A DNA stretch of 10,743 nucleotides from Planctomycetaceae bacterium (lineage in GTDB: Bacteria; Planctomycetota; Planctomycetia; Pirellulales; Thermoguttaceae). The number at the start of each line of letters is the position of its first letter. The first letter of the stretch is position 1. Where the stretch lies: positions 1 to 10,743 of the forward strand of contig SUVI01000138.1 of NCBI GenBank assembly GCA_015062085.1, written 5' to 3'. Positions 8,388 through 10,743 of this stretch are shown here, in pieces. Both the position numbers and the translations under genes were made by a program. The notes under the pieces are model-generated. The model made no database searches, was not told the origin of the DNA, and worked only from the letters and a program-made list of their open reading frames with translations.

Positions 8388-9392
8388 TCACATTTCCCGC
8401 AATCGGGCGGGTAGTTCCGTGTAGCGGAAGAGTTTATGGTAGTCCATCAGGCCGGAGATGGCCCAGGAGCGAAAGACGGGTTTTCCCGCTTCGACAAGTA
8501 CCGCGATGGGATTCAGACCGCCGACCACGATCGCGCCGACGTACCCCTCGCTCACCGGGATGCCAAGGATCGATTGGTTCGGGAGTCCGAATTTCAGGAA
8601 TCCGCCCAGCCCGATCTTCTCCATCCGCTCGATGATCCCCTCCACCCGCGGCCGGCTTTCGTCCGGCAATTCACGAAACGCTGCACCGATCAGACCGTTG
8701 CCCGTCCGGAGCGCGTCGCGGTAGTTCGTCATCCCTGCACGAATGAAGATGGCCAGCGGATCCACGGTCGTCGCGTTGTAGTTGATGATCTCGGTAAAGC
8801 GTGACGGTTTGGAGTTTTCCAGCTCCAGAAGCCCGCTGAATCGTGAAAGCATCGGGATCCCGTGTTTCAGAAGCACGCCGTTGAACGTCACGGAGCAGAC
8901 GGTACAGAATCCAACGTGTCCCGGCGGAATGACCGTCCCCTGCCAGTTTTCGCCCGGCCGCAGGAGCGAGACCATTTCTCCCATGGCGTAACCGTGCTGG
9001 AAAACACGGCAAATGTCGTCGAGGCACTCGAGCAGGTCGCGGACCGGCAGGATCGACATATTCACGATGACCTCACCAGAGCAGGTCGGAAGGTCAAAGG
9101 ACATTCGGTACGTCATCCGGTCGATCTTTGCCGAAAGGAAACTGAGACCGCGTGCTCCGTCATTTTCCTGGAGTTCACGCAATCCGGCAGGGGTGATCGT
9201 CCGTCCTTTTCGTCCCTGAGAACGGGTCAACCCTTCCTGATCCATGCTCTGGAGGTACATTCGGACGGCCCGTTCGCTGTAGCTGACCCCCGCGGAATGC
9301 AGGATCTCCACGATCTGTGCCGAAGTGAGCAGTTTCCCCTCTTCCTTCAGCACACGCAGGATCTCGATCTTCTTTCGGTCTTTTTTGTCCAT
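8388..9392 (-). CDS. NrpR-type transcriptional regulator (winged helix plus NrpR/DUF128 domain)
   Basis: A 334-residue protein starting at ATG 9392 behind AAGAGG. Residues 1 to about 75 form a winged helix of the type seen in NrpR (EILRVLKEEGKLLTSAQIVE; recognition helix about SYSERAVRMYLQSM; wing SQGRKGRTITPAGLREL). Residues about 80-334 fit one NrpR effector domain, ending with the typical IPVSEGYVGAIVVGGLNPIA (281-300). In methanogens NrpR represses nitrogen-fixation and glutamine synthetase genes and releases DNA when 2-oxoglutarate binds. Those proteins often carry two effector domains; here there is one. It sits 92 nt downstream of gdhA, in the same direction, which supports a role in nitrogen control. 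No own promoter is clear, so it may depend on read-through from gdhA. The family call is strong; target and ligand are inferred. Confidence 0.82.
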   Translation of the reverse strand: MDKKDRKKIEILRVLKEEGKLLTSAQIVEILHSAGVSYSERAVRMYLQSMDQEGLTRSQGRKGRTITPAGLRELQENDGARGLSFLSAKIDRMTYRMSFDLPTCSGEVIVNMSILPVRDLLECLDDICRVFQHGYAMGEMVSLLRPGENWQGTVIPPGHVGFCTVCSVTFNGVLLKHGIPMLSRFSGLLELENSKPSRFTEIINYNATTVDPLAIFIRAGMTNYRDALRTGNGLIGAAFRELPDESRPRVEGIIERMEKIGLGGFLKFGLPNQSILGIPVSEGYVGAIVVGGLNPIAVLVEAGKPVFRSWAISGLMDYHKLFRYTELPARLREM

Positions 9393-9414
9393 GAGGAGCC
9401 TCTTTCATTTCACT

Positions 9415-9449
9415 AAAAAACGCCGGCACAAAAGAAAATGCCGACGTTT
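9415..9449 (-). terminator. Terminator of gdhA, upstream of the NrpR-type gene
   Basis: On the - transcript an 11-bp stem (9449-9439 with 9428-9418), complete when one G-U pair is counted, has a 10-nt loop and is followed by six U. The mismatch exists only on the + strand, which assigns it to the - strand. It lies 36 nt past the gdhA stop, so expression of the regulator must come from read-through or an unseen promoter. Confidence 0.75.
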
Positions 9450-9484
9450 ATCTCATGCAGGAAATTTATTCAGTCCTGTGCGGC

Positions 9485-10743
9485 TCAGACGACACCCTGA
9501 GCAAGCATGGCTTCCGCGACTTTCAGGAAACCGGCGATATTCGCGCCGGCGGCCAGATTCCCCTTTTCGCCGTAGGCTTCCGCAGCGCTGGTGCACTGAT
9601 CGTAGATCTTGTCCATGATGTCGTGGAGTTTCTCATCCACTTCGTTAAACGACCAGGACAGACGCATGCTGTTCTGCGTCATTTCCAGCGCGGAGGTGGA
9701 AACACCGCCGGCGTTCGCGGCTTTGGCCGGACCGAAAGCGACGCCGCTGCCCTGCAGGGTGGCGATGGCTTCCGGAGTGCTCGGCATGTTCGCGCCTTCC
9801 GCGACGAATTTGCATCCGTTACTCACCAGAATGGCGGCTTCTTCGCCGTTCAGTTCGTTCTGCGTCGCGCACGGAAGAGCCACGTCGCACGGAACGCTCC
9901 AGATACCGCGGCAGCCTTCCACATACTGGGAACCCGGAACGATGTCGGCGTATTCCTTGATGCGGGCACGGCGAACTTCTTTGATGTCCTTGATGACGTC
10001 GAGGTTGATCCCCGCTTCGTCCACGATGTAGCCGTTGGAGTCGGACATGGCGATGACTTTCGCGCCGAGGCTCGTCGCTTTCTGATTCGCGTAGATCGCG
10101 ACGTTTCCGGAACCGGAGATGACGACTTTCTTGCCGTTCCAGTCCGTACCGGCATCCTGAAGCATGCGGGTCGCGTAGTAGACGAGACCGAAACCGGTCG
10201 CTTCCTTACGGGCCAGAGAACCGCCCCACGTGAGGCCTTTGCCCGTCAGAACGCCCGTGAACGTGTTGGTCAGACGCTTGTACTGGCCGAACATGTAGCC
10301 GATCTCGCGCGCGCCCGTTCCAATATCGCCGGCCGGAACGTCCGTGTCGGGACCGACGTGACGGAACATTTCGTTCATGAAGCTCTGGCAGAACGACATC
10401 ACTTCACGGTCGCTCTTGCCCTTCGGGTCGAAGTCGGAACCGCCTTTACCGCCGCCGATCGGCGTGGTGGTCAGCGCGTTCTTGAAGATCTGCTCGAAAC
10501 CGAGGAACTTGATGATGCCGAGGTAAACGGACGGATGAAGACGGATACCGCCTTTGTACGGACCGATCGCCGAGTTGAACTGAACGCGGAAACCGCGGTT
10601 GACCTGCACGTCGCCGTTGTCGTCTACCCACGGAACACGGAAAACGATCTGACGTTCCGGTTCCACGATACGGTCAACGATCTTCGCTTTCACGAATTCC
10701 GGACGTTTTTCGAGCACCGGAGCGATCGTTTCCAGAACTTCTT
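9485..10743 (-). CDS. gdhA: Glutamate dehydrogenase, hexameric type, probably NADP-dependent (5' end outside window)
   Basis: Reductive amination of 2-oxoglutarate with ammonium to glutamate, cytoplasmic. About 419 codons are visible up to the TGA at 9487-9485. The frame stays open and family-like to the right edge ([16 protein letters not shown]), so the GTG near 10717 is not the start; about 28 residues are missing compared with the 447-residue E. coli enzyme. Landmarks in order: [16 protein letters not shown] (substrate lysine), [20 protein letters not shown] (catalytic lysine), [19 protein letters not shown], the dinucleotide motif SGSGNVA followed by [24 protein letters not shown], and the closing [20 protein letters not shown]. 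The SDSNG end of the second strand resembles E. coli-type NADP enzymes; cofactor choice is inferred. Followed by its own terminator and then the NrpR-type regulator. Confidence 0.95.

Follow-up and report, generated by a model that had tools for sequence, protein, structure and literature searches.

The regulator NrpR is known mainly from methanogens. In these archaea, repression of nif and glnA by NrpR depends on 2-oxoglutarate (PMC9765008). The archaeal operator is GGAA-N6-TTCC, and NrpR is found in many Euryarchaeota and in certain Bacteria (PMC2723118); in Methanosarcina mazei, repression runs via NrpRII and TBP (PMC3960522). The window analysed here, a stretch of planctomycete DNA of 10 743 nucleotides, carries a gene of this family next to a glutamate dehydrogenase (GDH) gene, gdhA. 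To our knowledge bacteria have no TBP, and the NrpRII–TBP mechanism therefore cannot apply to a bacterial NrpR.

The ORF list gives a minus-strand protein of 334 amino acids. Both of its domains score above the curated Pfam cut-offs (HTH_12, 54.0 bits against 21.4; NRD1_2, 257.8 bits against 25), which bears out the original prediction of a winged-helix plus NrpR-domain protein and places the C-terminal domain inside the PF01995 NRD family. The sole significant PDB sequence match is 3nek, the MJ0159 ‘nitrogen repressor-like protein’ (8e-22), and five further matches have E values of 0.33–0.84. An AlphaFold2 model (mean pLDDT 91.5, 41 sequences) recovers the NRD fold of MJ0159: the match to the archaeal structure 3nek_A has an E value of 4.6e-18, a TM-score of 0.91 (by target length) and an rmsd of 2.1, and the structures ranked after it have rmsd values above 10. 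MJ0159 is identical at 17 of the 27 NRD columns that are invariant in the bacterial alignment. The window gene is a genuine bacterial NrpR by family and fold.

Table 1. Features of the window and the basis of each assignment.
Feature	Position	Strand	Basis
nrpR, winged-helix + single NRD regulator	8388..9392	-	ORF, Pfam, model, fold match
HTH_12 (PF08461) DNA-binding domain, residues 9–74	9171..9368	-	Pfam E 1.6e-14; coordinates derived from residue numbers
NRD1_2 (PF01995) effector domain, residues 84–321	8430..9143	-	Pfam E 9.8e-77; fold match 3nek_A
gdhA, NADP-type glutamate dehydrogenase, open at edge	9485..10743	-	ORF, Pfam, NF006929
Hairpin, U-rich 3' side, terminator-like, between gdhA and nrpR	9418..9449	-	folding z -3.9
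Exact palindrome CGGCA-N5-TGCCG	5102..5116	.	pattern scan; between genes

Only the C-terminal 418 amino acids of gdhA lie in the window, its 5' end and promoter being beyond the edge; they match the NADP-specific glutamate dehydrogenase equivalog NF006929 with 729 bits (E 2e-219). The ORF coordinates confirm that nrpR follows gdhA on the same strand after an intergenic gap of 92 nt (9393–9484). Co-transcription of the two genes is doubtful because of the strong U-rich hairpin in this gap, which suggests that gdhA transcription mostly stops before nrpR; gdhA and nrpR probably do not form one simple operon. A strict terminator scan listed none in the gap, and a strict scan listed no promoter-like site within 9300–9560. 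Directly downstream of nrpR there is a ribosomal protein and rpoA cluster (5185–8160, minus strand; rpoA assigned by Pfam, the others by eye). A gene of the isocitrate/isopropylmalate dehydrogenase family (PF00180, 1402–2499), about 6–7 kb from nrpR and gdhA, possibly codes for a 2-oxoglutarate-producing enzyme; an ORF antisense to it is present in the genome G001 (L017) too.

Among named records, the closest nrpR relatives belong to MAGs of Thermoguttaceae and Planctomycetia; the top two (97%) come from goat colon and water deer rectum. G001 is the nearest relative genome, with 30% of sampled 31-mers in common with the window. The distribution of PF01995 is patchy: it was found in 12 of 60 relatives and, in a phylum-wide sample, in 12 of 294 genomes, of which two had already been counted among the relatives. 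Seven of the eight members of the window's genus among the 60 relatives carry it, the exception being G006 (93% complete). Two nrpR loci turned up when the class of G327 was sampled more widely, both already in the set.

In total, 36 distinct nrpR loci were gathered by similarity to the protein or family and not by context: 12 from the 60 relatives, 14 from named records (18 loci, less four repeating G001, G003, G007 and G008) and 10 new ones from the phylum sample. Neighbouring genes were assigned by tblastn. A glutamate-forming enzyme or a homologue lies beside or near nrpR in 28 of the 36 loci, namely gdhA in 11, a short glutamate-synthase-like gene in 12 and full GltB in five. The pairing with gdhA put forward in the original prediction is thus recurrent (11 of 36 loci; five of the seven NrpR-positive genus members), but it is not specific to gdhA, since 17 loci have a gene of the glutamate synthase type instead.

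The gdhA gene is on the same strand as nrpR in L016, L017, L019 and L022, and also in L024 with two ORFs between; within the genus, it is directly upstream in four of the seven NrpR-positive members and separated by two ORFs in a fifth. Divergent order is found in all six gdhA-linked loci outside the genus (L020, L025, L040, L203, L204 and L206), with a different GDH type in L204 (34% identity). The glutamate-synthase-like gene is divergent from nrpR in its 12 loci (L014, L015, L030, L031, L033, L034, L036–L039, L041 and L205), the match in L031 being weak (30% identity, partial). These ORFs have about 527–608 amino acids; those of L014, L033, L034 and L039 match PF01645 weakly (43–56 bits), the cut copy in L030 has no PF01645 match, and none of the five scanned reached any NCBIfam model. 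Full-length GltB follows nrpR in all five loci of one clade (L207–L211). Eight of the 36 loci show no glutamate-forming neighbour: L018, L021, L023, L032, L042, L043, and L035 and L044, which are on contigs of 4073 and 3062 bases.

Two observations on these neighbours stand apart. A protein of 527–576 amino acids of the glutamate-synthase-like type (L014, L015, L033, L036, L038, L039 and L041) is the commonest neighbour of the bacterial nrpR genes in this set. In L042, from a spirochaete MAG, glnS, coding for glutaminyl-tRNA synthetase, is upstream of nrpR (3736–5406).

Visual inspection of the gdhA upstream regions of four genus relatives first revealed a palindrome, and the search outside the genus was then made blind. 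Within 350 bp upstream of the 29 non-genus nrpR genes, GGCA-N4-TGCC and CGGC-N6-GCCG, which represent the same palindrome read in two ways, are the commonest dyads with 4-base arms (12 of 29 each), and CGGCA-N4-TGCCG tops those with 5-base arms (8 of 29); the maxima in 60 shuffles were 5 and 3, respectively. In a blind dyad search over 500 bp and spacings of 4–6, exact CGGCA-N4-6-TGCCG is present upstream of 18 of the 29 genes. The dyads that follow it (seven each) read the same palindrome at an offset, the most frequent unrelated dyad is found in two of 29, and 200 first-order shuffles gave no dyad above 3. The stretches downstream of nrpR, 27 of 29 longer than 400 bases, do not contain the exact dyad (0 of 29).

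Allowing one mismatch, the site is upstream of 23 of the 29 genes. The 29 loci fall into 21 clusters at 70% protein identity, 13 of them with an exact site, and the consensus of the 25 N4 sites that have no more than one mismatch is close to wTCGGCAAWWTTGCCGAw. The six genes without a site at this threshold include one with only 104 bases upstream and that of L206, which is divergent from gdhA; in the window's genus, no site precedes nrpR itself (0 of 7). The presumed promoter of the gltB-like gene in L033, L036 and L037 lies between two sites spaced about 120 bp from each other. The nearer one starts 43–52 bases before the start codon and would lie in the early leader if a TTGACA box chosen by eye is right; this box is not the top-scoring promoter guess. 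The archaeal operator GGAA-N6-TTCC was rejected as the bacterial site, being absent from all 66 regions (0 of 36 upstream of nrpR, 0 of 30 upstream of gdhA). Because this pattern describes one archaeal operator, that of Methanococcus maripaludis, its absence lowers functional identity and leaves NrpR family membership untouched.

The gdhA promoters of 30 family genomes were compared by scanning, for one gdhA-type gene per genome, the upstream region to a maximum of 330 bp, leaving out further gdhA matches without a locus and a G003 fragment; the regions of G025, G034 and G011 were shorter (26, 273 and 307 bases). A site with at most one mismatch is present in 8 of 9 NrpR-positive against 3 of 21 NrpR-negative genomes (G023, G029 and G034; Fisher p 2e-4) and an exact one in 5 of 9 (G001, G002, G004, G007 and G028) against 0 of 21 (p 9e-4), values that overstate independence because six of the nine NrpR-positive promoters come from one genus. 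Eight of the 21 NrpR-negative genes are distant GDH paralogues (30–34% identity) with extrapolated or uncertain starts; among the NrpR-negative genes at least 56% identical to gdhA of G001, 2 of 13 have a site with at most one mismatch (p 0.0015) and 0 of 13 an exact one (p 0.005). The window ends inside gdhA and the operator candidate is seen in relatives only, where the conserved inverted repeat expected near the gdhA promoter is indeed found and tracks the presence of nrpR. The background in NrpR-positive genus loci is 0.09 sites (one mismatch at most) per 330 bp, over 155 080 bases with the gdhA regions included.

In NrpR-positive G014 the 330 bp before gdhA are free of sites, those of this genome lying closer to nrpR, and G006, the genus member in which no nrpR was found, has no gdhA site. 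In G004, G005 and G028, gdhA is on another contig than nrpR and yet carries the site, which speaks for action in trans. About 7.7 kb on either side of nrpR is free of gdhA in G004; the contig of G005 stops just past nrpR, and that of G028 starts 2.6 kb before it. In six genus members (G001, G002, G004, G005, G007 and G008), the -35 and -10 boxes were chosen by eye and transcription was taken to start 7 bases after -10; on this basis, sites with two mismatches or fewer are centred at -81 to -84 in five promoters and at -49.5 to -52 in five. Further sites are centred at +13 (G002), +13.5 (G005), +26 (G004) and +31 (G001), the last probably by chance.

Other occurrences of the pattern were considered. 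The window contains no N4 site and two exact N5–N6 sites. The one at 1542, inside an isocitrate-dehydrogenase-type (idh) ORF, was rejected as an operator, being probably due to chance. The intergenic one (table 1) is followed, after about 30 bases, by a near-consensus promoter (TTGACA, 17, TAGAAT, by eye) of the ORF at 4170–4976 on the minus strand, which has no Pfam match; G001 has an identical palindrome with a similar promoter. It is possibly a second NrpR site. It folds as RNA too (z -4.19) and could be a plain hairpin; a separate hairpin before it could end the preceding gene. Where GSI-type glnA is present, its upstream region holds an exact site in G028 (229 bp) and a site with one mismatch in G002 (172 bp); the scan picked out no site in G007, G022, G031 and G035.

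Genome-wide counts of the exact N4 pattern were discarded as a regulon finder. Some NrpR-negative genomes are rich in it (52 in G010 against 22 for the reversed control; 93 against 21 in G016), NrpR-positive G007 has 5 against 9, and in 33 of 43 loci every exact N4 site is inside an ORF of more than 120 amino acids (the 43, from NrpR-positive and NrpR-negative genomes, include some duplicates and leave out L084–L090). Separately, two species have exact operator-like palindromes in long gaps close to the same gene, without a clear target: in G003 (contig C173, L114 1786–1828) two of them separated by 29 bp, and in G008 one (L131 1515). They have no Rfam match and possibly reflect a promoter that went unrecognised or a small RNA under NrpR control.

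The nitrogen equipment of the seven NrpR-positive genus members is limited. PII (PF00543) was not found in G001, G003, G005, G007 and G008, is present in G002 and is partial in G004; AmtB was found only in G002 and G007; the only convincing glutamate synthase (GOGAT) match is in G002, with fragments in G005 and 20–22 bits or nothing in the others. Each of the three is thus undetected in five of the seven genomes, and all three in G001, G003 and G008, single absences being weak at a MAG completeness of 85–93%. NrpR-lacking G006 has a full GOGAT (497.6 bits) and neither PII nor AmtB. With GOGAT, AmtB and PII each undetected in five of seven members, NrpR may be a main nitrogen sensor in the genus, and the NrpR–gdhA loop may be a main transcriptional nitrogen switch there.

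Family, fold, gene linkage, the conserved palindrome and its co-occurrence with nrpR are computed results. Taking these together with the archaeal analogy, we think it likely that bacterial NrpR binds CGGCA-N4-6-TGCCG sites and represses gdhA until 2-oxoglutarate rises; DNA binding by the window NrpR, its dimerization, the 2-oxoglutarate effector and the repressive sign are what we infer. A dimer, as the dyad sites suggest, would bind wTCGGCAAWWTTGCCGAw palindromes with this core. In the genus, it would occupy one or two sites just upstream of the predicted gdhA promoter, with centres near -82 and -51, and in some species a weaker additional site near +13. By archaeal analogy, NrpR would be bound and gdhA held down when nitrogen is plentiful and 2-oxoglutarate low; a rise in 2-oxoglutarate would release it, and gdhA would be induced by the substrate of its own product. 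NrpR would have to target bacterial promoters, where it presumably works through bridging or blocking.

Two features favour repression relieved by 2-oxoglutarate: the predicted promoters come fairly close to consensus, and some sites lie downstream of the start. Since positions -51 and -82 suit an activator too, NrpR could instead bind these same sites, contact RNA polymerase and activate gdhA at plentiful ammonium, which we consider rather unlikely. The best sites lie upstream of -35 in six genus promoters, and many bacteria use GDH at high ammonium. However, near-consensus promoters such as those predicted for gdhA rarely need an activator, and the sites downstream of the start (G002 and G005) and in the gltB-like leaders fit repression. 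Archaeal NrpR is, moreover, a repressor (PMC9765008 and PMC2723118). It is very improbable that the palindrome belongs to another regulator and that NrpR lies near nitrogen genes by chance: the bare pattern is common in some NrpR-negative genomes, but it is the sole outstanding dyad upstream of nrpR in diverse bacteria and tracks nrpR at gdhA promoters, even on separate contigs. Finally, the same-strand order in five of seven NrpR-positive genus members (one with two ORFs between) would agree with NrpR acting solely as a member of a gdhA–nrpR operon, with upstream palindromes devoid of any role, but the terminator-like hairpin, the sites at gdhA on other contigs (G004, G005 and G028) and the divergent order in all six gdhA-linked loci outside the genus leave this the least credible explanation of all.

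A wider form of the favoured reading, 2-oxoglutarate-relieved repression by NrpR, has in our view an even chance of being right. Bacterial NrpR would be devoted to regulating glutamate formation and would have an operator code of its own (wTCGGCAAWWTTGCCGAw); it would be spread over several bacterial groups and attached to whichever glutamate-making enzyme is used, be it GDH, full GltB or the short glutamate-synthase-like protein. In those Thermoguttaceae of the ruminant gut that are poor in PII, AmtB and GOGAT, it would be the sole transcriptional carbon/nitrogen sensor. If so, bacteria without detectable PII and glutamate synthase would still match ammonium assimilation to carbon supply, and one sensor domain would have been kept across the archaea–bacteria divide with a change of operator and targets. 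The original prediction had called bacterial NrpR largely uncharacterised. Homologues are already in print (PMC2723118), and the operator and the linkage to glutamate enzymes appear undescribed within the openly licensed literature: neither a bacterial NrpR operator nor a tie to GDH or GOGAT figures in the titles and abstract beginnings among the matches listed (openly licensed PMC papers), and the string CGGCAAAATTGCCG has no match in the openly licensed PMC literature. The present analysis offers a precise predicted DNA site and a target list for the bacterial branch of the family.

Other regulators, GltC, NtrC, GlnR/TnrA and NtcA, control GDH or GOGAT by carbon/nitrogen balance and belong to protein families unrelated to NrpR. 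NtrC signalling depends on PII, whereas PII is undetected in five of the seven NrpR-positive genus members. The archaeal NrpR proteins (Methanococcus maripaludis; NrpRI and NrpRII of M. mazei) are like the bacterial one in having a winged helix and an NRD with the MJ0159 fold (3nek), although the window NrpR has one NRD only and that of M. maripaludis has two. They are also alike, on the bacterial side as predicted, in a palindromic operator of similar overall length, in nitrogen-assimilation targets and in more than one operator per promoter; for archaeal nif, a paper title mentions two. The two branches differ in the targets, nif and glnA for archaeal NrpR and, as predicted, mainly GDH and glutamate synthases for the bacterial one, and in the site itself, which is GGAA-N6-TTCC in Archaea (PMC2723118) and the predicted CGGCA-N4-6-TGCCG in Bacteria.
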